Below are positions 15,191-48,895 of a DNA stretch of 64,000 nt, one piece after another. The first letter of the stretch is position 1. Each line of letters begins with the position of its first letter. The notes below the pieces were generated by a model, which saw only the letters and a list, made by a program, of their open reading frames with translations, did not search any database and was not told where the DNA came from. Source of the DNA: an uncultured Clostridia bacterium (GTDB taxonomy: Bacteria; Bacillota; Clostridia; UMGS1883). A program made the translations under genes and the position numbers. The DNA lies in the NCBI GenBank assembly GCA_947626145.1, contig CANQRB010000007.1, forward strand, positions 1-64,000, in the 5' to 3' direction.

Positions 15191-15993
15191 ATTTTTATGA
15201 ATTTCCGGCGGAACTCCAGCGGGGTTTCGCCGGTTTCGGCTTTGAACAGCCTTGAAAAATGGCTGGGCGAGACGACGCCTATGGATTCGCCGATCTCCTC
15301 GATTGACATATTTGAGGTCTGGAGCAGCCGCCGGGCCACGTCTATCTTGTAGTCGATGATGTACTGCTTCGTGCTCTTTCCGCAGATGCTGTTGAAAACC
15401 AGCGTCAGGTACCCGCGGGAGATGCTCAGGTGCCGGGCGATGTCCGACACGTTTATTCCGTCGGAAATGTGTACCTGTATGTAGGCCACGGCTTTCTTGA
15501 AATAGGTCTCCAGCGGTATTTCCGCCCGACGCACACGCCCGCTCATGGTGGAGGCCAGATTCCAGAAGGCTCCGGTCAGGGCGTACTCGTCGGTGTTGCC
15601 CAGTGAAACCAGCTCCGTCAGGGCCGCGCCAAGGGCCCCGCTGTCGTCGTTGTAGATGGGATTTTCCGCCGAAAGACCGCAGTCCTTCAGCAGCGCGTCT
15701 ACTTTTTCGCCGTAAAATTCCACCCACCGGTACTCGAAGGGATCGAATTTGTCCGCCACGTAGATCGCGACCACGTCGGGCGTTATCAGAAAGGCCTGGC
15801 CGGCCTGTACGTTATAGCTCACGTCGTCACCCGTAAATACCCCCTTGCCGGAGTATACATAGTGCATCAGATAGGTCTGTCGGGCGAATTTGGGCTCGTG
15901 AAAGCCCGGCTGACACTTGCGGTAGCCGTACTGTATGACATTGAAATCCATGTTCGTCCGGTTGCTGTTTATGTAATTTACATGGTTGTGCAT
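15187..15993 (-). CDS. AraC-family transcriptional regulator
   Basis: A 268-residue regulator with an N-terminal cupin-type sensor (YGYRKCQPGFHEPK, VYSGKGVFTGDDVSYNVQAG) and a C-terminal double helix-turn-helix (GINVSDIARHLSISRGYLTL, then SIEEIGESIGVVSPSHFSRL). It is paralogous to the regulator at 44661; both carry the NFNVxQYGYRKCxPGF-like opening and a DPFEYRWxEFYG segment. It converges with the importer operon and is transcribed away from the surface-enzyme operon at 16302. It has its own promoter at 16026-16054. Regulation of either neighbour is inference. Confidence 0.88.
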   Translation of the reverse strand: MHNHVNYINSNRTNMDFNVIQYGYRKCQPGFHEPKFARQTYLMHYVYSGKGVFTGDDVSYNVQAGQAFLITPDVVAIYVADKFDPFEYRWVEFYGEKVDALLKDCGLSAENPIYNDDSGALGAALTELVSLGNTDEYALTGAFWNLASTMSGRVRRAEIPLETYFKKAVAYIQVHISDGINVSDIARHLSISRGYLTLVFNSICGKSTKQYIIDYKIDVARRLLQTSNMSIEEIGESIGVVSPSHFSRLFKAETGETPLEFRRKFIKI

Positions 15994-16025
15994 GAAAGTC
16001 TCACCCCTTATAAATCTACTTTACC

Positions 16026-16054
16026 AGTTTACCAGAAAATTATCTTTTTGTCAA
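16026..16054 (-). promoter_or_regulatory. Promoter of the AraC gene
   Basis: On the minus strand: TTGACA (16049-16054), a 17-bp spacer, TAAACT (16026-16031), 33 bases before the ATG. A duplicated TTTACCAG covers the -10 region. Confidence 0.7.
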
Positions 16055-16065
16055 TTACAATTTTT

Positions 16066-16123
16066 AAAAAATTTCAAAAATGTACACTAAATTTATATTT
16101 TTGTAAGAAATTACCAAAAGGAG
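16066..16123 (-). promoter_or_regulatory. Possible AraC-type half-sites (weak family 2 matches)
   Basis: The minus strand reads TACATTTTTGAAATTTTTT (16066-16084), about 12 bp upstream of the -35 box, and CTTTTGGTAATTTCTTAC (16103-16120). Both resemble the stronger repeats at 41137 and 48855-48895 (core TTTYGGTAATTTC). The area is AT-rich, so chance similarity is possible. The rest of 15994-16301 holds only the two promoters. Confidence 0.35.
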
Positions 16124-16220
16124 CAGTATCAATTTGTTATACTGGACTTTCCTTTAAAAATGCCGATAAATAAAGGGTTTACTTGGAATATAGTTATATT
16201 GCATTACGATATAATTATAT

Positions 16221-16249
16221 TTACACCATTTTGCGCAGTATTGTATAAT
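16221..16249 (+). promoter_or_regulatory. Promoter of the surface-enzyme operon
   Basis: TTACAC (16221-16226), 17 bp, TATAAT (16244-16249). An overlapping alternative is TTGCGC (16231) with 18 bp to TATAAT (16255-16260). Both lie 40-60 bp before the ATG at 16302, which has AAGGAGG about 6 bases upstream. Confidence 0.6.
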
Positions 16250-16301
16250 TGTTATATAATACAGTATAGTATATTATTGAAATGAGCAAGGAGGAAGATT
16301 T

Positions 16302-35517: not shown

Positions 35518-35529
35518 CGATTTGGCATG

Positions 35530-35561
35530 ATACAAAATGACAAAATAATTATACAAAATGG
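35530..35561 (+). promoter_or_regulatory. AraC-type operator, family 1
   Basis: ATACAAAATG occurs at 35530 and again at 35551, exactly 21 bp apart, with an extra ACAAAAT in between. The 26 bases 35535-35560 match the reverse complement of 39398-39423 at 24 positions. It ends 3 bp before the -35 box of the next gene, where AraC-family activators commonly bind. Confidence 0.7.
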
Positions 35562-35563
35562 AC

Positions 35564-35592
35564 TTTACAATGCTGTGGCTGGGTGCTACAAT
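35564..35592 (+). promoter_or_regulatory. Promoter of the 35627 gene
   Basis: TTTACA (35564-35569), 17-bp spacer, TACAAT (35587-35592). The ATG at 35627 has AGGAGG about 8 bases upstream. Confidence 0.7.
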
Positions 35593-35626
35593 ATATGTAT
35601 AAAATAGAAAATAGGAGGAATGTATT

Positions 35627-38600
35627 ATGAAAAGGTTAAAAAGGAACTGCGGCGGCGGAGCCGGCCTTGGCCTGACCAGGCTTTTGGCCCTGTTTGTCGT
35701 TATCGCAATGGCTGTGGGCATAATGCCCACTGTGGCTTTGGCGGAGGAGCCGGACTACGTACATTATTATATAAAAAATGTGTCCACCAAACAAGTGCTC
35801 CAAAGCAACGGTCATGGAAATATCATTAATTTTGTCGAACCTAGCAGCGCGGAAAATCAAAGTTGGATAATCACGCCAATAGCGGATGTCCGCGCGGCAA
35901 AAAATCTTGATGCTGCAAACGGCCTTGACAACTGTTACTATATTTCGATAGGTGAGGTAACAGACGGAACCGCGTCTATGGAAGTCGTCGTCATTAACGG
36001 CGGCGGCAATTCTGATAGGACGGGAGCCACACTGGTTGAGTGGGATTTAATGGCGAAAGACGATCAAAATTCCACCACGGATATATGGAAGATCGTTCCC
36101 GTGGAGGGTGACTCTAATAGTGGATTTAAGTACAAAATCCTCTCCGCTCACTCCGGACTTTGCATCGACGTTATCAACGGGACTCCGGCTCTGAATGTCT
36201 ACACCGGCCTTGATACTCAAAAATGGGCCTTTGAACAAGTGTCTGGCACAACGCCAACCACATTCAGCACAGTTGTTGACGAAAGCAAGACTGAATTGAA
36301 AAATACAGTGTATATTCCAACTGTGTCATCTGAGCTTGACGAACTTGTTAAAAATGCAAATGGGCCCGTATCCGACCTGGCGATAACAGGTTCAATTAAT
36401 AAACCCAATGATTATATGTATGGTCCGACTGCTGAATTGACGGGCAAGGAGAATGCGACAAACGGTAAGGAGCTAGGAGGTACGTACTATGCGCTTAATG
36501 TGGCTGATGCGGATAATACGATGAACGCCACATATCTCAAGGGAAGGGTTCCCGATCAACAAACGGTTTGGCATGATGTTACGATGAAAACTGATAGCAG
36601 TGACTATTTTATCTACGAGTTTGTACCGACATATGTTAATTCTGCTTCCAGCGGTGAAATGGGAAGTGAAATAGGATTTAGAGACAGTGCCGGCAAGCTT
36701 ATAGGGGCTTTCCGTATGGGAGTTCCGGGAAATTCGGAATTTTCTCCGTATTATGTACACCATGGCGGTAATGGAAACAATTATCTCGAACCTGAAGATT
36801 TCCCTATTGTCGAGACCGAGAATAATCACGAAATTAAATCAGTTGCAGGGGCGTCAAACAAAAATACTTTGATAAGGATGGTTGTCCTTAATCTCAAGTC
36901 TGACGACGACAACAACGGTTCCCATGCCGTAAGATTTTACTGGCGCAAGCCTTACGATGCGGATTCAAAATGGACGCTTTTCTATGAGGCCAAGTATAAC
37001 GGCGTGGTTGGCCCTCTTGCCAAAATAGAGGATCGCAACATCTATTTCAACGGAGGTACGTTGAACGATAAAAACGCGGAAGGGATGGGCTTCGGTAACT
37101 TTAAGGCCTATGCCGGAAATTATATCAATGGTTCAACGAAGATTGATTCCGTGACCACTGAGCAAAACGTAGTGCCCACGCTTCAGCCTAAGACTGATGA
37201 GGGCAACGATATTATATGGGGCTATGCGGACTATTCCACAGACGGTAAGCGCGTAACAGTACACGGCGTTGTTCTTCAGACCGGCGAGGCCGTGACTGCA
37301 GAGGTTATGGTAGGAAAAAGAAATTTGAGCAAGCACCTTACTCATTACTACGATTTTGACAGTGCGGCTGAAGGTACGACGGTGAAAAATGCGGGCACTA
37401 CAAGTGCTGCAGGCGATGGCGTGCTTAATGAAGATGCTAAGATTTATGAGGGTAAGCTCCTGATTAACCGTAACGATAGGGGAAAAACCGATTATATGAA
37501 GATAAATAACGCCGTTGTTACGGATGATCAGACCGAGGTGACAATAGCCGCGTTTTTCCGGCCAAGCATAAATCAACAATCAAATCCTTTGTTTGGATTT
37601 GGAGCAGACGATCATAGGCGGGCATTCTATAATCCAAATACTAATAATGGTCAATTTTTTGAAGTCAGAGCAAATGATGGTTGGAATGGAACAGACTATT
37701 CGGGATTTAACTTTAGTTCTTCTGCTTTAGCCAATAAATGGCATCACATAGCAATAGTTGTAAAGGACAATCAAGTTATAACATATAGTGACGGTGTAAG
37801 TGTTGGAGAAAATACATTTAGCTTGAATCAAACCGTTATAAACTGCATGAAGGGAACAGAAAATTATATCGGTGTGTCGGGATATTCCTCAGGTATTCCA
37901 AACAGCTTCACCGGCTTTATTGACGATTTCCGCGTTTATAACATTGCCCTTAGTGACGACGAAATTGCCACTCTTGCTGGCGATCGTCCGGAAGAGGACA
38001 ACGACCTTATAACTGTCAGCGCTCCCGAGCTGAATGTTGTTAAAGATGCCGGCGAAAGTGATGCAAATGTGGACGATTTATATATGGAGTACAAGGTTGA
38101 CTTCAGTGACGTCAAGGAGTCTGTTGCGGATATTTGTAACAGAACCTTATACTACTCTGTTACTGTAAATCAGTTCGATGCTGACAGTAAGGAGCCCACT
38201 GTTGTAGGAGATGCGCAGACTGTTACCGTTGATGATAATGGAATTGCCACTGTTGGAATAGTACCAAAAAATCCCAATGTAATATATGGTATTTCAGCAA
38301 GCGTAACGGTTGACAATGAGCAAAAGAATGGTCAAGATGCCTACGCTTCTATCGACGCCAATATCGCCAACGCCACCACTCTCTACGAGGAAGTGCTTAA
38401 GGATTTGGCCAACAGCAACTATCAGCAAGGCGACAGCCTTGACCCTGCCCGTCTCGCCAGCGCCAACACCGTTATCGGCCTTGGCGGCTTGGCTGGAATA
38501 GCCGACCTTCAAGGTTTGCAGAATCAAATCATGACGGCCGAAGGCAATACCGTTACGATTAATACACCCTTCAAGGAGCTTGGTATAGGCTTCAAATACA

Positions 38601-38839
38601 GTGCAGATAAGCTTTATGTAGGTGACATTGCAGTTACCGGCTATGCTGATGGTACAGTATATCGGCAACTTACCCTTGCGGACGGCAAAGTTACTCTCAG
38701 CGATCCGTTTGATGCTACCGGTCAGGAAGCCATCACCCTTTCCCTCGACGCGGTACAGATAGAGTTTGTCGAGACGCTCATCGAGTCCCTTGAGGCCGAA
38801 AACGCCGGCTCCGAGGCGGACTTCATTCCCGAATTATAA
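35627..38839 (+). CDS. Secreted ricin-fold / LamG carbohydrate-binding protein
   Basis: A 1070-residue secreted protein with a long signal peptide (LLALFVVIAMAVGIMPTVAL). Its GIMPTVALA ending matches the signal region of the 16302 product. Residues about 45-215 are a ricin-type region (QKWAFEQVSG). About 270-560 look like a ConA-like beta-sandwich. Residues 565-780 are a LamG module (LTHYYDFDSAAEGTTVKNAG, FTGFIDDFRVYNIALSDDEI). The tail is beta-rich and unassigned. No catalytic motif was found, so binding or surface display is the best guess. Bases about 36000-38300 are clearly more AT-rich than both ends of the gene, which suggests the middle was acquired by recombination. The adjacent operator and promoter suggest AraC activation. 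Confidence 0.75.
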   Translation: MKRLKRNCGGGAGLGLTRLLALFVVIAMAVGIMPTVALAEEPDYVHYYIKNVSTKQVLQSNGHGNIINFVEPSSAENQSWIITPIADVRAAKNLDAANGLDNCYYISIGEVTDGTASMEVVVINGGGNSDRTGATLVEWDLMAKDDQNSTTDIWKIVPVEGDSNSGFKYKILSAHSGLCIDVINGTPALNVYTGLDTQKWAFEQVSGTTPTTFSTVVDESKTELKNTVYIPTVSSELDELVKNANGPVSDLAITGSINKPNDYMYGPTAELTGKENATNGKELGGTYYALNVADADNTMNATYLKGRVPDQQTVWHDVTMKTDSSDYFIYEFVPTYVNSASSGEMGSEIGFRDSAGKLIGAFRMGVPGNSEFSPYYVHHGGNGNNYLEPEDFPIVETENNHEIKSVAGASNKNTLIRMVVLNLKSDDDNNGSHAVRFYWRKPYDADSKWTLFYEAKYNGVVGPLAKIEDRNIYFNGGTLNDKNAEGMGFGNFKAYAGNYINGSTKIDSVTTEQNVVPTLQPKTDEGNDIIWGYADYSTDGKRVTVHGVVLQTGEAVTAEVMVGKRNLSKHLTHYYDFDSAAEGTTVKNAGTTSAAGDGVLNEDAKIYEGKLLINRNDRGKTDYMKINNAVVTDDQTEVTIAAFFRPSINQQSNPLFGFGADDHRRAFYNPNTNNGQFFEVRANDGWNGTDYSGFNFSSSALANKWHHIAIVVKDNQVITYSDGVSVGENTFSLNQTVINCMKGTENYIGVSGYSSGIPNSFTGFIDDFRVYNIALSDDEIATLAGDRPEEDNDLITVSAPELNVVKDAGESDANVDDLYMEYKVDFSDVKESVADICNRTLYYSVTVNQFDADSKEPTVVGDAQTVTVDDNGIATVGIVPKNPNVIYGISASVTVDNEQKNGQDAYASIDANIANATTLYEEVLKDLANSNYQQGDSLDPARLASANTVIGLGGLAGIADLQGLQNQIMTAEGNTVTINTPFKELGIGFKYSADKLYVGDIAVTGYADGTVYRQLTLADGKVTLSDPFDATGQEAITLSLDAVQIEFVETLIESLEAENAGSEADFIPEL

Positions 38840-38854
38840 GGAGGACGATTGAAA

Positions 38855-39031
38855 ATGAAAAAGTTTACTTATCCCGAAATTAAAACAGCCGACCTCCGCG
38901 GTGAGGAGGTTATGGCCGGCATCCTTAAGACCAGCTATGAAAGCCGGGCGACAGGCGTAAAGCTCATTACCGTGGAAGAGCCTGCTGAGACTGCCGAGGG
39001 CTACAAGTACTGGAAGTCCTGGCAGCAATAA
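38855..39031 (+). CDS. 58-residue conserved-looking small protein
   Basis: ATG at 38855 lies 10 bases after AAGGAGG, 15 bases after the preceding stop, so it should be co-transcribed. The peptide starts KKFTYPEIKTADLRGEEVMA and ends in an aromatic, charged tail (GYKYWKSWQQ). No signal peptide, no membrane segment, no cysteine. The opening MKKxxxPEI..., then an acidic EEVMAG block, resembles small uncharacterised Clostridia peptides that sometimes read like leader sequences, but no modifying enzyme or exporter lies nearby. A TTG at 38849 is a less likely start because of its short spacing. A terminator follows. Confidence 0.6.
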   Translation: MKKFTYPEIKTADLRGEEVMAGILKTSYESRATGVKLITVEEPAETAEGYKYWKSWQQ

Positions 39032-39109
39032 TAAATCGAAGTTTCCCATATTCGCGGTCCCTCCTCCTTGGGCAATAGGTACCAGCCTTTTCCGCGAGTA
39101 ATTGAACGG

Positions 39110-39147
39110 CGCTCCGCGTTTTGACCGACGCGGGGCGTTTGTCTTTT
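39110..39147 (+). terminator. Terminator after the small protein gene
   Basis: Arms CGCTCCGCG (39110-39118) and CGCGGGGCG (39129-39137) pair over 9 bp with one G-U, followed by TTTGTCTTTTT. The 79 bases between the stop and this hairpin also contain CGCGG/CCGCG arms, possibly a folded 3' end. Confidence 0.7.
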
Positions 39148-39207
39148 TATACTAATTCCAAATTAAGATCATAAATATGTAAGTTTATTACGGTAACAAT
39201 GGCAGAT

Positions 39208-39372
39208 TAAAAAGGCTTCCCCTCGAGGGGAAGCTGTCAGCGATAGCTGACTGATGAGGTGTAGCCGCTGTGCGGCGTTATTGTAACCGTATATGTATAA
39301 CGGATGCTTCGCATCCTACACCTCATCCGGCACTTCGTGCCACCTTCCCCTCAAAGGGGAAGGCTTTATTAG
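39208..39372 (+). mobile_element. MITE-like inverted-repeat element
   Basis: About 160 bp with long imperfect terminal inverted repeats. The left end reads AAGGCTTCCCCTCGAGGGGA... to GATGAGGTGTAG, the right end CTACACCTCATC... to CCCCTCAAAGGGGAAGGCTT. Each arm contains its own palindrome. ATTA flanks both sides and may be a target duplication. No ORF. Elements of this type are scattered in gut Clostridia and are probably moved in trans. This is the only copy I found here. Its strand is arbitrary. Confidence 0.75.
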
Positions 39373-39397
39373 ACGCTTTCAATTGGGAGTAGTATAA

Positions 39398-39423
39398 CAT
39401 TTTGTATAATTATTTCGACATTT
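39398..39423 (-). promoter_or_regulatory. AraC-type operator, family 1 (second copy)
   Basis: Read on the minus strand this matches 35535-35560 at 24 of 26 positions (shared core AAATAATTATACAAAATG). It ends 5 bp upstream of the -35 box of the AraC gene at 39506, in opposite orientation to the first copy. Confidence 0.7.
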
Positions 39424-39428
39424 ACATC

Positions 39429-39458
39429 TTGACACGAGCCGCGCCGTCGGAGTATAAT
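39429..39458 (+). promoter_or_regulatory. Consensus promoter of the AraC gene pair
   Basis: Perfect TTGACA (39429-39434) and TATAAT (39453-39458) with 18 bp between. The ATG at 39506 follows CGGAGGA. A consensus promoter next to an operator fits autoregulation, by repression or activation. Confidence 0.8.
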
Positions 39459-39505: not shown

Positions 39506-40375
39506 ATGTTCACCCCTCTTACCGACGATGAGGATCGCTGCCTTTCGATATATGTTCTGGGCTCCAAGGCCGTCGCGCACCAAAAGGCCGAAAATTACCC
39601 CGGCGGCTTTGCCAAGTGCTGCCAGTTTTCGCTCTTTACCGGCGGGAGGGGCAGCTTTACGGATCACAACAAGAAAAAGTGGAGAATTCACCCCGGTGAC
39701 GTGTTCTATTTTACCGAGGGCACTCCCGTGGAATATTACCCATTCACTGACCGGTGGGAGACTATGTACGTTATGTGCGCCGGCTCCGGCCTCGGCACCC
39801 TCATGGACTATCTGGGCTTTTCTCAGAGCGGCGTTATCACCACCACAAACACCGGCGTTTTTGACGAGGTGCGCATCCTGTTTGAAGAGATAGTCGAGCT
39901 AAACAAGCTCCGGGGCCGGCTGGTCAATTCCGAGCTGTCATACCTGCTTTACGAGCTGCTGATGGTTCTGGGCGAGTGCAACGGCGCCATGCCTAACGAG
40001 GATCCCGCCATAAAACGCCTCGAGCCCCTCGTCAAAATGATAAACGAGCGTTACCATGAGGATATCCCTCTGGAGGAAATGGCCGACCTCGTGGGCTGCA
40101 CTCCCTCTTATCTTGGCAAGCTTTTCCGTGAGGTGTACCACACCTCTCCCGTGACTTATCTGATCAGGGTCAGGGTAGAACAGGCCCGCAGGCTCCTTTG
40201 CTCTGACCTTTCCCTCACCACTCAGCAGGTGGGGGAGCGCTGCGGCTTCAACGACAAGTCCTATTTCGGCAAGATATTCAAAAGATACACCGGCATAACG
40301 CCCGCCGAATATCGGGCGGCCAACACATATATCGAAAATAACCGGGGGAATAAAGATGCTGTTACTGACCAGTGA
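39506..40375 (+). CDS. AraC-family transcriptional regulator
   Basis: A 289-residue regulator. The N-terminal cupin sensor includes FSLFTGGRGSFTDHNKKKW and HPGDVFYFTEGTPVEYYP. The C-terminal HTH pair at about 185-280 includes DIPLEEMADLVGCTPSYLGK and LTTQQVGERCGFNDKSYFGK followed by IFKRYTGITPAEYR. It lies directly after its own promoter and a family 1 operator. It is the best candidate reader of the near-identical sites at 35535 and 39398, which would make it autoregulated and the regulator of the 35627 gene. The next regulator overlaps its end by 20 bases. Confidence 0.88.
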   Translation: MFTPLTDDEDRCLSIYVLGSKAVAHQKAENYPGGFAKCCQFSLFTGGRGSFTDHNKKKWRIHPGDVFYFTEGTPVEYYPFTDRWETMYVMCAGSGLGTLMDYLGFSQSGVITTTNTGVFDEVRILFEEIVELNKLRGRLVNSELSYLLYELLMVLGECNGAMPNEDPAIKRLEPLVKMINERYHEDIPLEEMADLVGCTPSYLGKLFREVYHTSPVTYLIRVRVEQARRLLCSDLSLTTQQVGERCGFNDKSYFGKIFKRYTGITPAEYRAANTYIENNRGNKDAVTDQ

Positions 40376-41135
40376 GAACCTTTTGGTGCGGGTGGTGGAC
40401 GCCGCCCGCTGGACGGTGGAACGCTTTGAGGAGATATACAACTTCCCCTTTGCACAGCTCATTTTCTGCGACAGGGGGCGGGGCCGGCTACTGCCGGAGA
40501 ACGGCGTCGAGACCCCTTTCTCCGCCGGGGCCGCCGTCTTTCTTGCCAAGGGAGCCCGCTGCGGTGTGATCGCCGACGGAGGGCCCCTCAAATTCCGGAA
40601 AATTGCCTGCGACACGGTCATGACCCCGTACCTGATGAACTACTTCGACAGCGGAACCGTGAATTTACTGGAAAAGTGCAGCCCGGAGCTGAGGCGGCTG
40701 TACCGCGAGCTTTACGGCCTGTGCGGCAGCGCCGCCGTGTCCAAAGACAAAAACGTCTCACTCAAGCTGTACCGGGCGCTGATTTTGATGGGGCAGGAAA
40801 TAGCCGGGAAAAACGACAACGAGGCCGGTGTCCTGCGGAAGATGGCCGACCGGTACGGAGATTACATTTTTAAAAGCTTTAAGGCCGGCGAGGAGGCGGC
40901 TCCCGCGCCCGAGGCCGAGGCGCTGATGCGCCGGGTCTACGGTATGAGCGTCGGTGAGTACAGCCTGTATATCCGCCTCGAGAGGAGCAAGCCCTTTATC
41001 TGCTTTATGCGGAAGGACATCGACGTTGACTGGCTGGCCGAATATCTGGGCTTCGGCAGCGCCGGGGAATTCCGCGAGAGCTTTGCCAGCCGCTACGGCC
41101 TCACGGTCGAGGAGTACGCGACCGGAATGAAGTGA
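40356..41135 (+). CDS. Divergent AraC-like regulator with shortened first HTH
   Basis: A 259-residue protein starting at an ATG behind CGGGGGAA inside the end of the previous gene, so translationally coupled. A cupin-like N-terminus (GRGRLLPENGVETPFSAGAA, VFLAKGARCGVI) and an intact second HTH (IDVDWLAEYLGFGSAGEFRE, RYGLTVEEYA) are visible. The first HTH region (PEAEALMRRVYGMSVGEYS) appears degenerate. It may bind DNA weakly, heterodimerise with, or modulate its neighbour. The family 2 repeats at 41137 start right after its stop codon. Confidence 0.75.
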   Translation: MLLLTSENLLVRVVDAARWTVERFEEIYNFPFAQLIFCDRGRGRLLPENGVETPFSAGAAVFLAKGARCGVIADGGPLKFRKIACDTVMTPYLMNYFDSGTVNLLEKCSPELRRLYRELYGLCGSAAVSKDKNVSLKLYRALILMGQEIAGKNDNEAGVLRKMADRYGDYIFKSFKAGEEAAPAPEAEALMRRVYGMSVGEYSLYIRLERSKPFICFMRKDIDVDWLAEYLGFGSAGEFRESFASRYGLTVEEYATGMK

Positions 41136-41136
41136 T

Positions 41137-41176
41137 TACATTTTGGCAATTTTGCCCTACAATTTGGTATTGTAGG
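41137..41176 (+). promoter_or_regulatory. AraC-type operator, family 2 (direct repeat, 21-bp spacing)
   Basis: TACATTTTGGCAATTTTGC (41137-41155) is followed exactly 21 bp later by TACAATTTGGTATTGTAGG (41158-41176). The 19-base first half recurs perfectly, inverted, at 48855-48873. The second half overlaps the -35 region of the following promoter. Confidence 0.7.
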
Positions 41177-41234: not shown

Positions 41235-43250
41235 ATGAAAAAGCTTATAACTTTGGTTGCGGCCCTTATAGGGCTTTTCGTCATGTGTCAGGCCGCCTCG
41301 GCGGCGGAATTCAAACACCCCGGTATACTCCACACTCAGGAGGACATCGACAGGGTTAAGGCGGCCGTCGCCGCCGGTCAGGAGCCTATCGCCTCCGGCT
41401 GGGAGGCGCTGGTGAACAGCGAGTTTTCCAAGGCCGGATGGTCGCCCAGAGCCGTCGATACCGTTGTCCGCGGCGGCAACGGCGACAATGTTTCTCTCCT
41501 TTACAACGATGTGGCCCGGGCCTATCAGTGCGCCCTGCGCTGGAAGATAAGCGGCGACACCGTCTGCGGCGATACGGCGAAGAATATCCTCAACGCCTGG
41601 AGCTCCACTCTTAAGACCCTGACCGGCAACGCCGACCGCTATTTGGCCTCCGGCATTTTCGGTTATCAGCTGGCCAATGCCGCCGAGCTCATGCGGGACT
41701 ATCCCGGCTTTGACGTGGACGGGATGAAAACCATGCTGACGGACGTGTTCTATAAGCCCCTGTGCGAGCGCTTCCTTCTGGGTAACGAGTTTGGGCGGGA
41801 TCACAACGACGCTCATATACAGAATTACTGGGCCAACTGGGATCTGTGCAATATGGCTGCCACCGTGGCCATAGGCATATTCTGTGACGACAGGGAGATA
41901 TATGACAAGGGCATTAATTACTTCATGTACGGGGCTGGGAACGGCTCCATATACAATGCCGTGCCCGCCGTGTTCCCCGGCTCTCTGGCTCAGTGGCAGG
42001 AGGCCGGCCGCGATCAGGGCCACGCCAATCTCGGCGTCGGCCTCATGGCCTGTACCTGCGAAATGGCATGGAATCAAGGCGTCGACCTCTATGGCTGGGC
42101 CAATAACCGCTTCATGTACGCCGCCGAGTATGTGGCAAGATACAACAACGGCGATGATGTGCCCTTTGCGGCCTATGAGTGGCACACGGGGCAGGGCGGC
42201 AATCTGATGAGCCATACCGTTGTGGCCGAAGGCGGCAGGGGAGAGGTACGTCCCATTTGGGAGATGATATATAATCACTACCATAACCGCATGGGACTCA
42301 GCGTGCCAAATATTGAAAAGCGGGCCGCACTCGGCCGTCCCGAGGGCGGCGCGGGCGGACACGCCACCACCTTTGACCAGCCCGGCTTCGGCACCCTTAT
42401 GTTCACCCGTCCGTCCGGCAGCGGAGGCGCGGCCGTTATGCCGGAGGGCAACGTGGCCGAGGGTGTGTACAGGATCGTTTCCCGCTCGACGGGCAAGGCC
42501 GTGGGCGTCAGGGACGGACGGGCGGTTCAGCTCGGTATTTCCGACGCCGACGACAGCCAAAAGTGGAGGATCGCCCACCTCGGCGGCGGACAGTACACCG
42601 TCACAAACGTGGACAGCGGCCTTTCCCTCTCGGTGGAAAATGAGTCCATGGAGAACGGCGCGGCCTATGTCGCCGCCCCGTATCAGGCCCGCAACAGTCA
42701 GAAATTCGCCTTCCTGCCCGCCGACGGCGAGTGGATGCGGATAACGGCAGTGCACCTCAGCAAGGCTCTGGACATATCCAACAACAGCTCTGATGACGGG
42801 GCCCAGCTGATACAGTGGACTTACGACCTCAAGGCTAATCAGCAGTGGAAGCTGGAGCTCATTGAGGCGGGCGACATTACTCCGCCGCAGCTGGCCGACA
42901 GCACTCGGGCCTATGTGACAATTAACGGCGCCTATCTTGAAAGCGACGTCAGTCCCGTTGTCGAAAACGGCCGTGTTCTTGTGCCAATGAGAGCCATTTT
43001 TGAGGCATTGGGAGCCGAGGTGGTCTGGAACGCCGGCACAAGTACCGTCATAGGCAGAAAGGACGGTGTGGAGATCGTCCTCAAGCTTGGAGACTCCACC
43101 GCGAGGATAGACGGAATGCCCTACGAGCTGGACGTTCCGGCCCGGGCCGTTGACGGACATACCCTTGTGCCCCTGCGGTTTGTGGCCGAGGCCCTCAGTG
43201 CGGACATCAGGTGGAACGGCGACACGTCAACGGCGGAAATACAGCTTTGA
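41235..43250 (+). CDS. Secreted alginate-lyase-superfamily enzyme with ricin-fold and CuAO-N-like repeats
   Basis: A 671-residue secreted enzyme. The ATG at 41235 is preferred over the upstream TTG because TGGAGG is 8 bases before it. The signal peptide ends near residue 24 (QAASAA). The toroid domain (25-385) opens HPGILHTQEDIDRVKAAVAA and carries QNYWANWDLCNMAATVAIGI and the family motif QEAGRDQGHANLG. A ricin-type module (405-545) includes SQKWRIAHLGGGQYTVTNVD. Two copper-amine-oxidase-N-like repeats (560-671, RVLVPMRAIFEALGAEVVWN, LVPLRFVAEALSADIRWN) end the protein; such repeats in Clostridia are structural, not oxidases. It is more distant from the other two toroid enzymes, so it may cut a different linkage. 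GH28 follows 26 bases on. Confidence 0.8.
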   Translation: MKKLITLVAALIGLFVMCQAASAAEFKHPGILHTQEDIDRVKAAVAAGQEPIASGWEALVNSEFSKAGWSPRAVDTVVRGGNGDNVSLLYNDVARAYQCALRWKISGDTVCGDTAKNILNAWSSTLKTLTGNADRYLASGIFGYQLANAAELMRDYPGFDVDGMKTMLTDVFYKPLCERFLLGNEFGRDHNDAHIQNYWANWDLCNMAATVAIGIFCDDREIYDKGINYFMYGAGNGSIYNAVPAVFPGSLAQWQEAGRDQGHANLGVGLMACTCEMAWNQGVDLYGWANNRFMYAAEYVARYNNGDDVPFAAYEWHTGQGGNLMSHTVVAEGGRGEVRPIWEMIYNHYHNRMGLSVPNIEKRAALGRPEGGAGGHATTFDQPGFGTLMFTRPSGSGGAAVMPEGNVAEGVYRIVSRSTGKAVGVRDGRAVQLGISDADDSQKWRIAHLGGGQYTVTNVDSGLSLSVENESMENGAAYVAAPYQARNSQKFAFLPADGEWMRITAVHLSKALDISNNSSDDGAQLIQWTYDLKANQQWKLELIEAGDITPPQLADSTRAYVTINGAYLESDVSPVVENGRVLVPMRAIFEALGAEVVWNAGTSTVIGRKDGVEIVLKLGDSTARIDGMPYELDVPARAVDGHTLVPLRFVAEALSADIRWNGDTSTAEIQL

Positions 43251-43276: not shown

Positions 43277-44647
43277 ATGAAAATACCGCGTCTTGAGCCT
43301 TTGCGCCCCTGGGATCGGCTTGACTTTGAAAACCAGAGCTATACCGTGAAGGTCAATGGGGAAAGACAGTTCGTCCGCGATGTGCGGGTGGATATGCACG
43401 ACAGGCATATCGCCGCCCTTTGCCTTTTCGACTTTGACGGGCCCTGTGAGGTAAGGATAAGCCGCAGGGGTATACCCATAAATTTTGTGGACATAAGGCC
43501 GACGGCCGAAAAGATCGAATACAGCATAGAGGGCAGCGAGCTTGTGCTGTACCTCGACAGGCCGGTTCGGCTGAGCGTCGAAATCGACGGCAACAGGTTT
43601 ACAAATCTACATCTCTTTGCGGAAAAGCCCGCCGGAATACCGGAGGGCCGCCGTATCGGGGCCGGTGTGCATCGGGTGGAGGACGCCGCACCCGCCGCAG
43701 GTGAGACCGTGATTTTTATGCCCGGCCTCCACTATATCGAGGAGGTCGTACTTCCGGCGGCGGAGGGCTCTACCGTTTGCCTTGCGCCGGGAGCGGTGCT
43801 GGTGGGCAGCATAGTCTGTGACCGGGTTTCCGGTGTGAGAATTTGCGGCGGCGGCGTCATAGACCTGCACAGCTTCGAACGTTACAGTACCTTCCGCGGA
43901 GTGAGGATAACGGACAGCCAAAATATCAGCGTGGAGGAAATAACCATAGTCAATCCCCCGCATTACAGCGTTTATCTGGGCTCCAGTGAAAACATACATA
44001 TCGACGGGATAAAATGCTTTTCATCCGAGGGCTGGTCCGACGGCATTGATATGATGGCCTGCAAAAATGTGCTGTGCGAAAACTTGTTTATGCGCAACAG
44101 TGACGACTGTATAGCCGTGTATGCTTCCCGCTGGAAGCACAGGGGCGGGACGAAAAATGTCACCGTCCGGAACAGCGTGCTTTGGGCGGATGTGGCCCAT
44201 CCCATGAATACGGGCGGTCACGGTCTGGAGGGGGATGTCATTGAGGATGTGGTCTTTGAGAATATAACCGTCCTTAACCACCACGAGCCCCAGAAAGCCT
44301 TTATGGGCGTTATGGCCATAAACGTGGGGGACGGCGTCATTGTCAGGAACGTTAAATACAAAAACATAACCGTCGAATGTATCGAGAAGGGCCGGCTTTT
44401 TGATATCCGTACCGTGAAAAACGACTGTTACAATAAGATACCGGGCAAAAGTGTCGAGAACATATCGTTTGAAAACATCAGCTCCTGCCGTGCCGGCGAG
44501 CCGTCAGTCATAAGCGGTTTCAGCCGTGAGTGTCCCGTGGAGGGCGTGACCTTCAGCAACATAAGGATAGACGGCAAAAGGGCCGCCGCTCTTGGCGAGG
44601 CGGATATAACCGTCGGAGACTTTGCCCATAATATAAGCTTGAGTTAG
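43277..44647 (+). CDS. GH28 polygalacturonase-like glycosidase (cytoplasmic)
   Basis: A 456-residue right-handed beta-helix protein of the GH28 family, which hydrolyses alpha-galacturonide and related bonds. The start is the ATG at 43277 behind AAAGGAG. Family residues are present: D255 in GWSDGIDMMA, D276 and D277 in MRNSDDCIAVYA, and H315 in NTGGHGLEGD, with RNVKYKN downstream. No signal peptide is present, so it should act in the cytoplasm on imported oligosaccharides, probably exo-acting. It lies between a secreted toroid enzyme and an AraC regulator in one operon. Confidence 0.88.
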   Translation: MKIPRLEPLRPWDRLDFENQSYTVKVNGERQFVRDVRVDMHDRHIAALCLFDFDGPCEVRISRRGIPINFVDIRPTAEKIEYSIEGSELVLYLDRPVRLSVEIDGNRFTNLHLFAEKPAGIPEGRRIGAGVHRVEDAAPAAGETVIFMPGLHYIEEVVLPAAEGSTVCLAPGAVLVGSIVCDRVSGVRICGGGVIDLHSFERYSTFRGVRITDSQNISVEEITIVNPPHYSVYLGSSENIHIDGIKCFSSEGWSDGIDMMACKNVLCENLFMRNSDDCIAVYASRWKHRGGTKNVTVRNSVLWADVAHPMNTGGHGLEGDVIEDVVFENITVLNHHEPQKAFMGVMAINVGDGVIVRNVKYKNITVECIEKGRLFDIRTVKNDCYNKIPGKSVENISFENISSCRAGEPSVISGFSRECPVEGVTFSNIRIDGKRAAALGEADITVGDFAHNISLS

Positions 44648-44660
44648 CGGGGGTGCAAAG

Positions 44661-45458
44661 GTGGAGCGCTGCAATTATATAAACTACGACCGGCGCAATA
44701 TTGACTTCAACGTGGTTCAGTACGGTTACCGCAAATGTGATCCCGGCTTCGGCGAAAAGCCGAATATATGGAGAAATTTTCTGCTGCATTATGTGTATGA
44801 CGGCAAGGGCGCTCTTTATGCCGACGGCAAGCGCATAGCCGTGGGAAAAAACCAGGCTTTTATGATTTTCCCCGGCCAGATAGCCAGCTACATCGCCGAT
44901 GAGGATGACCCCTTCGAGTATCGTTGGATCGAGTTTTACGGCGACGGGATGAAGCGGCTCCTGCCCGATGTGGGGGTTTCGGTGACAAATCCCATAATCG
45001 ACGACGGCGACGGCCGTGTCGGCGCCGCCCTGAAGAATATAGTCGACCGTGGCCCGATGGACAACGCGGTTCTAATGTCACACTTTTGGATGCTGGCCGA
45101 GGCGCTGGGCTCGGGACGCACGGACGACGTGAGCCAGAGGGAACGCTACGTCCAAAAGGCGGTGGACTTTATTCAGGCCGGCATCGGCCGGAAAATAACT
45201 GTGGAGGACGTTTGCCGTGAGCTGAATATCTCCCGCAACTATTTTACGGACATTTTCACGAAGTCTATGGGCATATCGCCGAAAAGGTACATCGTCAGCC
45301 GGCACATGGAAATGGCCATGGAGCTTCTGCGCCGCACGAAGTACAGCGTCAGCGAGATAGCCTATATCGTGGGCTACAACAATCCCATGGAGTTTACCAA
45401 GGCCTTTGCGAGGTTCGCCGGAATGTCGCCCAGCGAATACAGAAAAAGCTCGTTTTAA
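44661..45458 (+). CDS. AraC-family transcriptional regulator
   Basis: A 265-residue regulator with a GTG start behind GCGGGGGTG. The cupin-type sensor (VYDGKGALYADGKRIAVGKN, MIFPGQIASYIAD) and double HTH (KITVEDVCRELNISRNYFTD, SVSEIAYIVGYNNPMEFTKA) are intact. It is a paralogue of the regulator at 15187 (shared YGYRKCxPGF and DPFEYRWxEFYG). As last gene of the 41235 operon it is a candidate for reading the family 2 repeats upstream of that operon and in the 48.8 kb divergent region, but the assignment between AraC genes is open. Confidence 0.88.
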   Translation: MERCNYINYDRRNIDFNVVQYGYRKCDPGFGEKPNIWRNFLLHYVYDGKGALYADGKRIAVGKNQAFMIFPGQIASYIADEDDPFEYRWIEFYGDGMKRLLPDVGVSVTNPIIDDGDGRVGAALKNIVDRGPMDNAVLMSHFWMLAEALGSGRTDDVSQRERYVQKAVDFIQAGIGRKITVEDVCRELNISRNYFTDIFTKSMGISPKRYIVSRHMEMAMELLRRTKYSVSEIAYIVGYNNPMEFTKAFARFAGMSPSEYRKSSF

Positions 45459-45557: not shown

Positions 45558-48500
45558 CTAAAACTTTACAGTGCCGGCGTACAGGATCTCCGGCGCTGGA
45601 AAGGTCTCCTTCCTGAGAAGCTGCCAGTTTTCGCCGTCCCGTGAGGTAAAGGCGCTTACGGTTTGGCTGCCGAAGTCCCTTTCCAGCCGGAGGAAGGGCC
45701 CGAGCTCGTCAAGGTCGAACCGCAGGGGGCTCAGCTTGCCGAAGGGGCAGTACATAGTGTTCCTGGTTCTGACCCTGAACACCGGCCGACCCTTTTCATA
45801 TCCCAAGAAGGCATAGCGCGCATTTGCTTCGGCGCTTTCCCGCAGCATTATGCCGCCCTCTCTCAATTCTTCGGTGAGGACGATGTCTTTTGCCGCGGCT
45901 CGGGCGGTGAAGGTCATGGAGTCCCTGATGTCGCGTTCAAGAGCGCGGTAGTCGTCCCCCTCGCCGAAGCCTGTCGGCCCGCTCCCGATAGTGAAGCCTG
46001 CCGTTCCGCCGGTGAGGACGGCGGTTTTTGGGCAAGAGGGAGTCCCTTCGCCGTTATCGCCGAAGGCCGTCACCGTGTAGGTGTGGGCATCTCCTTTTTT
46101 AACGTCCATATCCCGGTATATATTGCCCTCGGCCTCGGCAATCGCCGTACCGTCCCGGTATATCCTGTAGCCTACCGCTCCGGCGGCGTGCTTCCATTGG
46201 AGAAGGTTCCCGTCCACGTCGTGCAATACGTTCAGTATGTTCACCCGGCTTGGCGGCAGCTCCCCGTCAGCCGTTTTCAGTCTTAGCACAAGGGCGGTAA
46301 TGGGCGGCACGGTCAGCTTTCCGTCAGGGGCGCTGACGTAAGCTCGGCTCCGCATATCGTATATTCGTCCTCTTTCGGGCACGGGCACGGTGAAGCTTCG
46401 GGCGTTTTCGTAGGCGGTGCGGGTGGTGTTCACTATTATAAAATACCTGCCGAGCTTCGCCCATATAACGTCGGGATAACCGGAAAACGGCGTGTCCGCT
46501 TCTAAATTTTCCCGCAGGACATGGCCGATGCCCTTTTGATATGTTATGGGCAGCTCCTCGCCGCAGAGGGCCTGTGGAGCGGCGGCAAAATCCTTAAGGA
46601 CAGACGGGTCGTCAGCGATAAAGTCCATGTTCACGTTGTCCGGGCGTATGTACTTGCCGTCCTCCTCAAAAATACCGTCGGTGGCGAACTGCATCAGCTG
46701 TACCGCGCCGCCTTGACGGACGTGGGCCCGGCCGACGGCGCTGTAGCCACGGTTCCGCAGGTTTAAGGCCGCAAACACTGAGGTGTCTCCGTCCCGCAGT
46801 GAGAGGGTCAGATTGTCAATATCGACCCAGGCAAACTCCGTTTCGCCCCGGACGTTTTCGTCCTTATACAGCCGATAGTCGGTGTGGGGCAGAAAGTGAG
46901 TCGGTTCGCCGGATAGAATTTCTCTCACCGTCCGATCTATGCGGAAATCGTTGTAGTTCGCCGCCAGGTCGTCTATGATAAAGTCCAGCCGCCCGTCCAG
47001 CCGCTGTTGTCGGGCGAAGTCCACTGCCTCCTTCGCATATAGCCGGTACTCCTCCCATTCGGGGCCGTAATAGCGGAGAGGCTCCTCCTCCATGTGTCCC
47101 AAGAGAGAGGCGAAGAGGAAGCGGCGGCCGTCATGAATATCGGTGGCGTAGGCGATTTTTCCGGGGAGGGTCGGGTTGCGTTCGTCTATGCCCTGCTCCA
47201 TGTGCATGATCCGGTTCCCGTCGGCGTCCACGGTCTGATAGCGCATAAAGCCCCGGGAGTGAATGTTCTTCAGAGCGGCGCGCATTATCTCATCGGATAA
47301 GTCCCTGTCGCCGTGGTTCCATGTGCGGTACACCCACTCCGGCAGGTAGTTGGCGGTTTCGCCGTAGTTGCCCACATAACCGTTTTCTCTGGTCATACAT
47401 TCCACCGTGAGGGGCCTGTAATTGGCGCCGTAGGGTCTGCGGCGGACAAAGTCCCCGTTTTCGTCGGTGAGCTGGCGGGCCCTTCCCTTGCAAACCACTT
47501 GAATAAAGTCCTCGGTAAAGACGGCCTCCCTGTCGTGGTGGAAAAGACAGTGGTAGAGGTCCAGCTCCCGGCCGTTTTCGTCGGTGAGCCGGTGTTCACC
47601 AAGCCAGTTGGCCAGCCCCAGTGCCTCCCGAAGAATACGGCGGCATTTTTCGTCGCCGATGTAAAGCTCGCTGCCTATGACGCCAAGCCCGGCCATGGAT
47701 TTCCACGCGCCCTCGTAAGTGTAATAGGTCTGGTTATAAATGTAACTCTGCCGGGCAGAGGCAAAGTCGAAGTTGGCTTTAAGGCACTTTTCCCAAGCTT
47801 CTTTTCTGGTGAGGCCGCTTGCGTCAAGAGAAAATTCTCCCTCTTTTGTAGGACAGTCGAAGGGCTCGTTGAGGTAACTGTCAAAGGCCGCGGAGCCAAG
47901 AATACTGTCGTCCCTGATCAACGGCTCGAGAATGTAAAGGCTCTGGCCCAGCTCGCCGTAATATCCGCCCCAGTCGCTTTGGTGGGAGGTGCGGGCCAGC
48001 GAACGCACGTCCGCAAAATAGTCACGGACGTAAAGGTCGATGCAGTCAAGGACAAGGCGTACCGCCTCGCCCTTTTTTTCAGCGGTGCCCGCGGGGCAGT
48101 AGGGCTCGTGGAGGATCATGCAGAATTGGCGCATACTCTCCACGTATTTCGTTATGGAAATTTTTTCTCCCGCGCGGAGGGCGGCCAGAGAGGAGTTGAA
48201 GGCCGTCCGCTGGTTCTTTATGTATTTTTTTACCGCCCTGTCCGTGTCCTTCATGGAATACTTTTTATAGGGCAGGGCCTTGGCGCTCGGTTCGAGGCTG
48301 TCCGCCGGGGGCAGCATGGGATCAAAGTGGGTGAGGGCCGCGAATATCCGTCCGCTGACCTCGGTCACGTCGCCGTAGGGCTGCCCCTGCCTTAAAACGA
48401 ATTTAAGCGAGCGCTTGCCTCTGGTGAAGCGAAGGGGTATGGCGGTGGTGCAGTAGAAAAAGGCAGGCGGGTCAAAGCCGCCGTAGCAGAGGTTCAGCGC

Positions 48501-48785
48501 CTCGTAGTCGCCGCACTTGGCATAGCCAAGCTGCCGGTCGTCTATCACAAGAAAAATGGGGGTATAGGAATCTCCGCTGAAGAGTCTTACCGACAGATAG
48601 TTTTGCTTTATTGGGTCTACCGTCAGAACAAAGGCGTATTCCCCGCCGAAGCGGCAGGGCGGGTCGGATGGCAGGGCTATACGGCAGCTCTCGCCTTTCT
48701 GCGGAGGTGCCGGAACCGTCCTCTCGCCCCGAAAGCCGTGAGCGGCCTCGCTGTCGGCGCTGCCGAAAATTATCGTGTCAAGCAT
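45558..48785 (-). CDS. Large cytoplasmic protein of unknown activity, toroid-like with Fn3 and ConA-like modules
   Basis: A 1075-residue protein with no signal peptide; the ATG follows AAGGAG. I do not recognise its family. Residues about 20-170 look like a beta-sandwich. About 180-800 are alpha-rich with repeated aromatic-rich helices (DWGGYYGELGQSLYILEPLI, YTYEGAWKSMAGLGVIGSEL, YVGNYGETANYLPEWVYRTW), typical of alpha/alpha-toroid lyases and hydrolases. An Fn3-like domain (about 860-940, WKHAAGAVGYRIYRDGTAIA) and a ConA-like module (about 960-1075, GGIMLRESAEANARYAFLGY) follow. Fn3 and ConA-like modules are unusual in a protein with no export signal. It shares a divergent promoter region with the GH88 operon, which suggests intracellular processing of the same oligosaccharides. 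It could be a new lyase or glycosidase family. Confidence 0.6.
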   Translation of the reverse strand: MLDTIIFGSADSEAAHGFRGERTVPAPPQKGESCRIALPSDPPCRFGGEYAFVLTVDPIKQNYLSVRLFSGDSYTPIFLVIDDRQLGYAKCGDYEALNLCYGGFDPPAFFYCTTAIPLRFTRGKRSLKFVLRQGQPYGDVTEVSGRIFAALTHFDPMLPPADSLEPSAKALPYKKYSMKDTDRAVKKYIKNQRTAFNSSLAALRAGEKISITKYVESMRQFCMILHEPYCPAGTAEKKGEAVRLVLDCIDLYVRDYFADVRSLARTSHQSDWGGYYGELGQSLYILEPLIRDDSILGSAAFDSYLNEPFDCPTKEGEFSLDASGLTRKEAWEKCLKANFDFASARQSYIYNQTYYTYEGAWKSMAGLGVIGSELYIGDEKCRRILREALGLANWLGEHRLTDENGRELDLYHCLFHHDREAVFTEDFIQVVCKGRARQLTDENGDFVRRRPYGANYRPLTVECMTRENGYVGNYGETANYLPEWVYRTWNHGDRDLSDEIMRAALKNIHSRGFMRYQTVDADGNRIMHMEQGIDERNPTLPGKIAYATDIHDGRRFLFASLLGHMEEEPLRYYGPEWEEYRLYAKEAVDFARQQRLDGRLDFIIDDLAANYNDFRIDRTVREILSGEPTHFLPHTDYRLYKDENVRGETEFAWVDIDNLTLSLRDGDTSVFAALNLRNRGYSAVGRAHVRQGGAVQLMQFATDGIFEEDGKYIRPDNVNMDFIADDPSVLKDFAAAPQALCGEELPITYQKGIGHVLRENLEADTPFSGYPDVIWAKLGRYFIIVNTTRTAYENARSFTVPVPERGRIYDMRSRAYVSAPDGKLTVPPITALVLRLKTADGELPPSRVNILNVLHDVDGNLLQWKHAAGAVGYRIYRDGTAIAEAEGNIYRDMDVKKGDAHTYTVTAFGDNGEGTPSCPKTAVLTGGTAGFTIGSGPTGFGEGDDYRALERDIRDSMTFTARAAAKDIVLTEELREGGIMLRESAEANARYAFLGYEKGRPVFRVRTRNTMYCPFGKLSPLRFDLDELGPFLRLERDFGSQTVSAFTSRDGENWQLLRKETFPAPEILYAGTVKF

Positions 48786-48811: not shown

Positions 48812-48840
48812 ATGATAATCCATTTCTCCGCAAAAATCAA
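48812..48840 (-). promoter_or_regulatory. Promoter of the 1075-residue gene
   Basis: Minus strand: TTGATT (48835-48840), 17 bp, TATCAT (48812-48817), 26 bases before the start codon. It is a weak match, and a family 2 half-site lies 14 bp further upstream. Confidence 0.45.
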
Positions 48841-48854
48841 TAGCCATTTTAACC

Positions 48855-48895
48855 GCAAAATTGCCAAAATGTATGATACCATTTCGGTAATTTCA
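48855..48895. promoter_or_regulatory. Divergent AraC-type operator, family 2
   Basis: The minus strand of 48855-48873 is identical over 19 bases to 41137-41155 (TACATTTTGGCAATTTTGC). On the plus strand, 48877-48895 (TACCATTTCGGTAATTTCA) is a variant pointing the other way. The pair sits between two divergent promoters and could control both. Confidence 0.7.

Follow-up and report, generated by a model that had tools for sequence, protein, structure and literature searches.

Introduction

Two promoters in the genome of an uncultured Clostridia bacterium, one for a large, putatively secreted protein and the other for an AraC-family regulator, are preceded by nearly the same 26-bp sequence in opposite orientations. 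This raises the question of whether the two sequences are operators, which protein would bind them and how far the set extends. Direct-repeat sites are familiar from Escherichia coli AraC, the half-sites of which at araBAD (I1 and I2) lie about 21 bp apart, with the proximal one at the -35 box. In the scheme outlined for MarA (PMC12052159), the site is non-palindromic and works according to its orientation towards the promoter, with activation from forward sites on or close to the -35 box; class I reverse sites lie at -56 to -85. In Caldicellulosiruptor bescii, the outline in PMC8579813 presents PecR, PecR2, HemR, AxuRS and XylQ as AraC-family proteins in local control of gene clusters for pectin and xylosides, with tandem-repeat sites upstream of promoter elements that were read as activation.

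In this study, the two promoters and their surroundings were analyzed in the window, the whole stretch of 64,000 nucleotides (part of genome G000), and compared with those of three further species of the genus (genomes G002, G006 and G007).

Results

Identity and rarity of the inverted pair

Direct comparison of positions 35535-35560 of the forward strand with the reverse complement of 39398-39423 gave 24 identical bases out of 26, as the first-pass annotation had claimed. An all-against-all search of the window found 13 merged pairs of 26-mers with at most two mismatches, among which this pair is the sole inverted one; the other 12 are direct repeats, ten of them in a repetitive stretch after 63233. 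Any pair of this quality appeared in only 2 of 200 dinucleotide shuffles. The genome-wide search that the annotation had proposed did not find the motif to be abundant: with up to three mismatches the merged 26-bp pattern occurs at two places in the 2,438,804 bases of G000, both already known, and the reversed control gave none.

A looser 24-bp core with three mismatches returned 14 matches in G000 against 6 in the control and was treated as background; beyond the two known sites, just one match is at two mismatches, and it lies within coding sequence. The same judgement was made of a single three-mismatch match to the 26-mer in G051 (same class, another family) and of the matches in G014 when a shortened, looser pattern was run over 21 family genomes (G000 2, G007 1, G014 2, control 1). 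The direct repeat described below was unspecific as a search key by itself (79 matches in G000 at up to three mismatches, against 42 for the reversed control). A search of the window against Rfam gave nothing at the gathering score.

The S2 promoter

At the first site, ATACAAAATG is repeated exactly at 35530 and 35551, a spacing of 21 bp. Operator 1 (35531-35565, forward strand, forward orientation) is a direct repeat of the form TACAAAATG..TACAAAATG with ACAAAAT in between, the end of which lies 3 bp before the -35 box; its 27/27 match to the 35-bp form given below takes in the first two bases of that box. The promoter scan places the core promoter at 35564-35592 on the forward strand, with the non-consensus arrangement TTTACA-17-TACAAT, and TTTACA is also found in G006 and G007. 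In ungapped comparison with G006, 28 of 31 operator positions are the same, against 14 of 40 in the 40 bp upstream, whereas G007 (29/31 against 35/40) is too close to be informative here. Weaker promoter-like scan matches, starting at 35522 and 39383 and scoring 10/12 each, overlap the motifs.

The downstream gene, S2 (35627-38839, forward strand), encodes a 1070-amino-acid protein with RicinB_lectin_2 and Laminin_G_3 domains, in agreement with the ricin-fold/LamG protein first described; its N-terminal sequence suggests that it is secreted, and its C-terminal domain is common to other proteins of the genus. An open reading frame of 58 amino acids (38855-39031, forward strand) follows 15 bp 3' of S2; searches of Pfam and NCBIfam gave no match to it, and its family is present in the four genomes searched.

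The AraC1 promoter and two overlapping regulator genes

Operator 2 (39398-39423, reverse strand) is reversed and ends 5 bp before the -35 box of a fully consensus promoter found by the scan at 39429-39458 on the forward strand (TTGACA-18-TATAAT), both hexamers of which are present in all four species. The operator is conserved at 26/26 positions in G007, at 23/26 in G002 (against 8/40 upstream, ungapped) and weakly, at 16/26 against 17/40 upstream, in G006. In all four species this promoter has a degenerate distal TACA repeat. Like the genome-wide search, the comparison of orthologous promoters named in the annotation speaks for its reading: the motif is kept in three of three genomes at S2 and in four of four at AraC1, with G006 weak; both counts include the window itself, and the first covers the genomes with the S2 promoter inside the stretches read.

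The gene downstream, AraC1 (39506-40375, forward strand), encodes a 289-amino-acid regulator that is indeed AraC-type, as first proposed, and is the presumed binder. The tandem helix-turn-helix is present in the C-terminal half (HTH_18, 77.3 bits, cut-off 33.6; HTH_AraC, 51.7 bits, cut-off 26.6), which matches the AraC DNA-binding domain 2k9s with an E value of 2.3e-10, and an AraC-like ligand and dimerisation domain is present in the N-terminal half (AraC_binding, 30.7 bits, cut-off 21.1). Its orthologs are 66% identical in G002 and 63% in G006.

The overlapping gene, AraC2 (40356-41135, forward strand), encodes a 259-amino-acid AraC-like protein with a degenerate DNA-binding half. The window protein lacks a complete tandem helix-turn-helix (HTH_18, 30.2 bits, below 33.6, over profile positions 14-78 only) and has no AraC-type PDB match at E values up to 1. 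Its C-terminal half is 44-47% identical to the orthologs and its N-terminal half 58-61%. An alignment of the three species with a complete AraC2 indicates that the AraC-like C-terminal end is kept and that most of the first helix-turn-helix is lost.

Further operators and a 35-bp form

The set was first described as confined to two promoters, which appears too small an extent, because a lyase gene and, more weakly, the gene of a 1075-amino-acid protein also fit the operator form. Operator 3 (41137-41171, forward strand, forward orientation, 27/27 to the 35-bp form) was aligned in four species. It was detected only through reading the AraC2-lyase intergenic regions of the window, G002 and G006; a position weight matrix built from the S2 and AraC1 sites missed it, with a score of -7.5 that ranked 240th in its register. 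It stands 3 bp before a weak -35 box that was chosen by eye (TTGTAG-18-TAAAAT) and is absent from the promoter scan, which offers a different candidate, from 41135. Identity to the window is 20/26 in G006, against 7/40 upstream, and 16/26 in G002, against 11/40 (ungapped); in G006, the spacer of the core promoter shows fair similarity too (10/17). The site overlaps a terminator-like hairpin in the window and G007, where the upstream DNA compared is partly AraC2 coding sequence. The 21-bp repeat is present here again in the window and G007, and in weaker form in G002 and G006, and this recurrence supports the AraC-like geometry originally suggested for it. The AATTA centre to which the S2 and AraC1 sites owe their near-identity is missing from operator 3, which leaves the 26-bp identity explained only in part.

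Operator 3 precedes a gene for an alginate-lyase-like protein (41235-43250, forward strand) with Alginate_lyase, ricin lectin and Cu_amine_oxidN1 domains. This gene is followed by one for a protein with a Glyco_hydro_28 domain match (GH28; 43280-44647, forward strand) and, 13 bp later, by AraC3 (44661-45458, forward strand), a second complete AraC-family regulator. The three genes probably form one transcript.

Comparison across species gave the 35-bp form TACAWWWTG-RCAAWWT-N5-TACAAWWTG-N3-TT, which holds the 21-bp direct repeat. No site scored above 22/27 when the window was shuffled 500 times, and the reversed pattern reaches 20, against 27, 27 and 24 for the sites of the unshuffled sequence. 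With up to three mismatches, the form has ten matches in eight genomes of the genus, G000 included, and the reversed control has none. The matches (G006 4, G000 3, G007 2, G002 1) are confined to the four genomes that bear AraC1, among which G007 is counted although its assembly holds only the start of the gene. None occurs in G001, G003, G004 and G005, where AraC matches to AraC1 are at most paralog-level (best E 1e-14); for G001 and G004, this absence of AraC1 rests on assemblies that are 86% and 76% complete. Eight of the ten matches precede S2, the lyase gene or the 1075-amino-acid gene. Eight of the ten, in a count that takes in a site on contig C4 of G006, are not independent tests, because the form was drawn up with knowledge of that site, of S2 sites from three genomes and of lyase sites from four. 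The G007 lyase site, left out of an earlier, shorter pattern, was then matched by it at one mismatch.

The other two matches are both in G006. The C4 site (24/27) accompanies a further pair of an AraC gene, which is a different one, and an S2-like gene; in the stretches fetched around the orthologs of this pair, the best sites are 18/27 in G007 and 19/27 in G002. The match at position 76774 of contig C7 (three mismatches) precedes a small open reading frame by about 300 bp, with no long one just before it, and is possibly due to chance.

Operator 4 (48839-48873, reverse strand, 24/27) came to light after the form was drawn up. It is forward relative to the 1075-amino-acid gene (45558-48785, reverse strand), which is presumed to be transcribed from a promoter at this operator. 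A candidate -35 box, TTGATT, was chosen by eye in this region, over which the promoter scan did not extend, and lies 33 nt past the operator start, as in operators 1 and 3. The G007 ortholog of the protein is 92% identical, and its upstream region matches the form at 22/27.

Anchored on the -35 box, the gap to the operator is 3 bp at S2 (three species), 3 bp at the lyase gene (four) and 5 bp at AraC1 (four), which upholds the 3-5 bp first reported for the pair.

Discussion

A proposed local regulon and its probable regulator

The four operators are best read as a local autoregulated AraC-family regulon in a polysaccharide-degradation cluster, with AraC1 as the most likely regulator; we assign this reading a probability of about 0.65. 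The sequences show directly where the sites are, how they are oriented and spaced, how rare the pattern is, that it is conserved across species and that it co-occurs with AraC1. That AraC1 is the binder, that it acts positively at the three structural promoters and that it senses a sugar-type ligand is what we infer from them. AraC1 would bind the 21-bp direct repeat TACAWWWTG(RCAAWWT)N5TACAAWWTG. At the S2, lyase-GH28-AraC3 and 1075-amino-acid gene promoters, the forward operator abutting a non-consensus -35 box would recruit RNA polymerase by class II activation. S2 fits this layout, with its forward operator 3 bp before TTTACA; the lyase and 1075-amino-acid gene operators are likewise forward, but TTGTAG and TTGATT, their candidate -35 boxes, were selected visually. 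Since the operator at the AraC1 promoter is reversed and lies 5 bp from a consensus promoter, we propose that AraC1 would tune its own synthesis there.

A more elaborate and rather doubtful version is a two-protein switch, in which AraC1 binds DNA, the product of the overlapping AraC2 gene is its partner or antagonist, and operator orientation sets the output: forward operators by weak -35 boxes would turn the polymer-degradation genes on, and the reversed operator by the consensus promoter would limit AraC1 itself.

Alternative explanations

It is unlikely, on balance, that the operators are real but bound by AraC3, AraC1 being merely one of its targets. AraC3 is a complete regulator in the same cluster, co-occurring with the sites, nearly as well as AraC1 does, in G000, G006 and G007 (orthologs 94% identical in G007 and 72% in G006). 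A paralog with 44% identity (15187-15993, reverse strand) has upstream blocks conserved in four species (TATATAACAATTATACAATA and others), one of which has a TTGTATAATTRTT-like core in common with the 26-mer; however, operator 3 lacks this AT core. Furthermore, G002 keeps two operators, at the AraC1 and lyase promoters, but its best AraC3 match is only 43% identical, although the contig stops inside GH28 and AraC3 may sit in the gap.

Binding of all four sites by a regulator encoded elsewhere is less plausible still. AraC-family genes are numerous, with ten matches to AraC1 in G000; however, the G000 sites are restricted to the cluster and, across the eight genus genomes, to bearers of AraC1. 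The 26-mers are A+T-rich and immediately upstream of -35 boxes, as UP-like elements contacted by RNA polymerase without a specific operator would be, but two copies genome-wide, conserved G and C positions, fixed spacing and inversion at one promoter make this very improbable. That the two inverted copies, 3.9 kb apart, bound a mobile or invertible segment can practically be dismissed, because gene order is the same in G007, G006 and G002 (from within S2 on) with promoter-specific spacing, sites related to them occur beyond its limits (41137 and 48839), and neither S2 nor the 58-amino-acid frame between the copies has a recombinase domain in Pfam.

Relation to known systems and significance

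The regulon under AraC1 proposed here would add one more local case to a well-known type of control circuit. It resembles araBAD in its direct-repeat half-sites about 21 bp apart with the proximal one at -35, but AraC1 is not AraC proper, scoring 81.5 bits against the 208-bit cut-off of the E. coli-type equivalog NF007860. As in the class II scheme outlined for MarA (PMC12052159), forward sites are at -35 and orientation would count; the locus departs from that scheme in having a 21-bp direct repeat as its site and a full-length AraC-type protein with a ligand domain, and in the closeness of the reversed self-site to -35, unlike the class I reverse sites given there. In layout, though motifs were not part of this comparison, the locus is like those outlined for C. 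bescii (PMC8579813), with an AraC-type gene beside polysaccharide genes predicted to be under its control and with tandem-repeat sites; it differs from that outline, in another organism, in carrying a reversed copy of the operator as well, at the promoter of the regulator gene, which the degenerate AraC2 follows.

The operator set, first noticed in the raw sequence and later backed by comparison across four species, provides a concrete candidate set of operators and a candidate regulator for a polysaccharide-degradation cluster of an uncultured lineage. AraC2, with its degenerate helix-turn-helix, is a candidate AraC partner that would not bind DNA by itself. One operator in opposite orientations, at weak target promoters and at a consensus self-promoter, would constitute a natural test of orientation-dependent AraC-type control.

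Inverted operator pair and its promoters

Two near-identical 26-bp operators, placed in inverted orientation at two promoters, had been described in the first-pass annotation as a small autoregulated AraC regulon. The copies are located at 35535–35560 (+), upstream of the secreted lectin-like gene S2 (35627..38839), and at 39398–39423 (−), upstream of the AraC-type gene AraC1 (39506..40375), and are identical at 24 of 26 positions. They form the sole inverted 26-mer pair in the window at ≤2 mismatches; the other 12 merged pairs are all direct repeats, ten of them inside the repetitive last kilobase, and any 26-mer pair was obtained in only 2 of 200 dinucleotide shuffles. The DNA at 63233–64000 is repetitive and contains numerous GCGTGACAATTCCAGACAGCGT-type direct repeats. 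A search of all 23 contigs of the genome (2,438,804 bases) with the merged pattern at ≤3 mismatches found only the two known places, with no match for the reversed control. The 21-bp spacing proposed for the ATACAAAATG repeat, at 35530 and 35551, is exact. AraC at araBAD has 21-bp direct half-sites at the −35 box.

A promoter scan placed the −35 boxes 3 bp (S2) and 5 bp (AraC1) downstream of the 26-mers, as the annotation had them, in core promoters of TTTACA-17-TACAAT from 35564 and TTGACA-18-TATAAT from 39429, respectively; two weaker promoter-like matches overlap the 26-mers.

Between these promoters, 15 bp after S2, lies a 58-aa ORF (38855–39031) that has no name in Pfam or NCBIfam; four genomes contain 22 matches to it at E ≤ 1. 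Judged from their coordinates, 17 of these matches start about 10–30 bp after a match to the S2 C-terminal domain, only six of these 17 reaching an E value of 0.001 as single matches; the C-terminal domain and the microprotein are possibly a secretion or anchoring module. A MITE-like element whose ends are inverted (AAGGCTTCCCCT...AGGGGAAGGCTTT) is located between this small ORF and the AraC1 promoter (about 39209–39370); only its two ends are present in the same-genus genome G007, and it is absent from G002, also of this genus.

Operators at the lyase and 1075-aa genes

The intergenic DNA between AraC2 (40356..41135) and the Alginate_lyase-domain gene (41235..43250) of the window species, G002 and G006 (same genus) contains a related element (operator 3), TTTTGRCAAWWTN5TACAAWWTG, followed by 3 bp and then by TTG, which was picked by eye as the −35; its orientation and 3-bp gap match those at S2. 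The promoter scan gave a candidate promoter from 41135, other than this by-eye −35. A search pattern derived from the element, with a trailing TT added, matched the window species' genome at 0 mismatches only at the S2 and lyase sites, with the next matches at two; over all mismatch levels there were five matches versus ten for the reversed control, and therefore only near-perfect matches carry weight. The lyase site of G007, which was left out when the pattern was written, was recovered at one mismatch. A terminator-like hairpin overlaps operator 3 in the window species and G007; at the lyase site of G002 and G006 the hairpin sequence is absent and most operator boxes are kept.

A 35-bp form that includes the distal half, TACAWWWTGRCAAWWTNNNNNTACAAWWTGNNNTT, has outer boxes repeating at 21 bp. 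In the window it scored 27/27 at 35531 and 41137 and 24/27 at 48839–48873 (−), the next score being 21; none of 500 shuffles exceeded 22/27, and the reversed pattern reached at most 20 in the real window. The third site (operator 4) lies upstream of a 1075-aa gene (45558–48785, −), for which TTGATT was chosen by eye as a candidate −35; counted from the start of the operator, its distance is 33 nt, the same as at operators 1 (S2) and 3. The ortholog of this gene in G007, a genome close to the window species, has 92% identity over 1075 residues and a 22/27 site at the equivalent place; the fetched stretch of G006 gave no match to the gene.

Across eight genomes of the genus, the window species' own included, the 35-bp form at ≤3 mismatches gave ten matches (three in its own genome, one in G002, four in G006, two in G007 and none in the other four) versus none for the reversed control. 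Eight of the ten precede S2, the lyase or the 1075-aa gene. The other two lie elsewhere in G006: a 24/27 operator copy before a second S2-like gene, behind a different AraC (C4:28341–28375; L136), and a site on C7 roughly 300 bp upstream of a small ORF. Because eight sites (S2 in three genomes, the lyase in four and the C4 copy) were known before the form was written, the count is evidence that the sites are rare and confined, more than a set of independent discoveries; those not seen beforehand were operator 4 and the one on C7.

Conservation among relatives

The 26-mer pattern was matched in five of 60 genomes, namely that of the window species, G002, G006, G007 and G051, the last belonging to another family and having a single three-mismatch match that was taken as background. 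No match was found in the same-genus genomes G001, G003, G004 and G005 (assembly completeness 86, 93, 76 and 91%), where searches with AraC1 gave paralog-level matches only. AraC1 orthologs have 66% identity in G002 and 63% in G006, after which the best matches by E-value have 28–33%; among the matches listed, 44% was reached only by short HTH-only stretches. In G007 the first codons alone of AraC1 are present, at a contig end, and a different contig carries the lyase together with the terminal part of AraC2. The order S2, small ORF, AraC1, AraC2, lyase and GH28 (a Glyco_hydro_28 gene, 43280..44647) is retained to the limits of the contigs.

Footprints were compared without gaps, anchored at the −35 box. 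Between the window species and G006, the S2 operator is identical at 28/31 positions, versus 14/40 in the 40 bp upstream and 6/17 in the −35/−10 spacer; the values for G007 (29/31; upstream 35/40) are uninformative because the two are nearly identical there. The AraC1 operator is kept at 23/26 in G002 (upstream 8/40; spacer 6/17); in G006 the values are 16/26, 17/40 and 6/17, so that the evidence there is weak. For operator 3, the agreement is 20/26 with G006 (upstream 7/40; spacer 10/17), 16/26 with G002 (11/40; 4/17) and 24/26 with G007 (upstream 29/40).

Candidate regulator

AraC1 has a complete AraC-type architecture. AraC3 (44661..45458), also a complete regulator and located 13 bp after GH28, is a real alternative as the protein that binds the operators. 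The region upstream of its paralog (15187–15993, −) is conserved, and one block has a TTGTATAATTRTT-like core that also occurs in the 26-mer; this core might account for the A+T-rich centre that is common to the S2 and AraC1 sites and absent at the lyase site. G002 keeps two operators with no AraC3 ortholog detected (best match 43%), which leans towards AraC1 as the binder, although the G002 contig ends inside GH28. AraC2, the gene for which overlaps AraC1, seems unlikely to bind DNA alone, since the window protein falls below the HTH_18 cut-off, its C-terminal half is less conserved between species than its N-terminal half (44–47% versus 58–61% identity) and the first HTH region is altered in the alignment of the window species, G002 and G006.

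The divergent intergenic region at 15994–16301, between the AraC3 paralog (44% identity to AraC3) and the gene at 16302, shows conservation across four species in several blocks (TATATAACAATTATACAATA, TGTAAATATAATTAT and TACATTTTTGAAA) and is a candidate second AraC control region.

Proposed regulation

In the scheme described for MarA (PMC12052159), sites in forward orientation that overlap the −35 box or lie close to it are of the class II activating type, and those in reverse orientation are positioned further upstream. For AraC-type regulators of carbohydrate genes in Caldicellulosiruptor bescii (PMC8579813), the sites are tandem repeats that precede promoter elements, and the regulators were interpreted as activators. 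By analogy with both, operators 1, 3 and 4, which are forward and have non-consensus −35 boxes, would be activating sites, and operator 2 (AraC1), which is reversed at a consensus promoter, would be autoregulatory, with either sign. We infer both the identity of the regulator, AraC1, and the sign of control. The inverted pair of 26-mers is confirmed, and the small autoregulated regulon stands in outline; with operators 3 and 4 added, it probably comprises four promoters rather than two.
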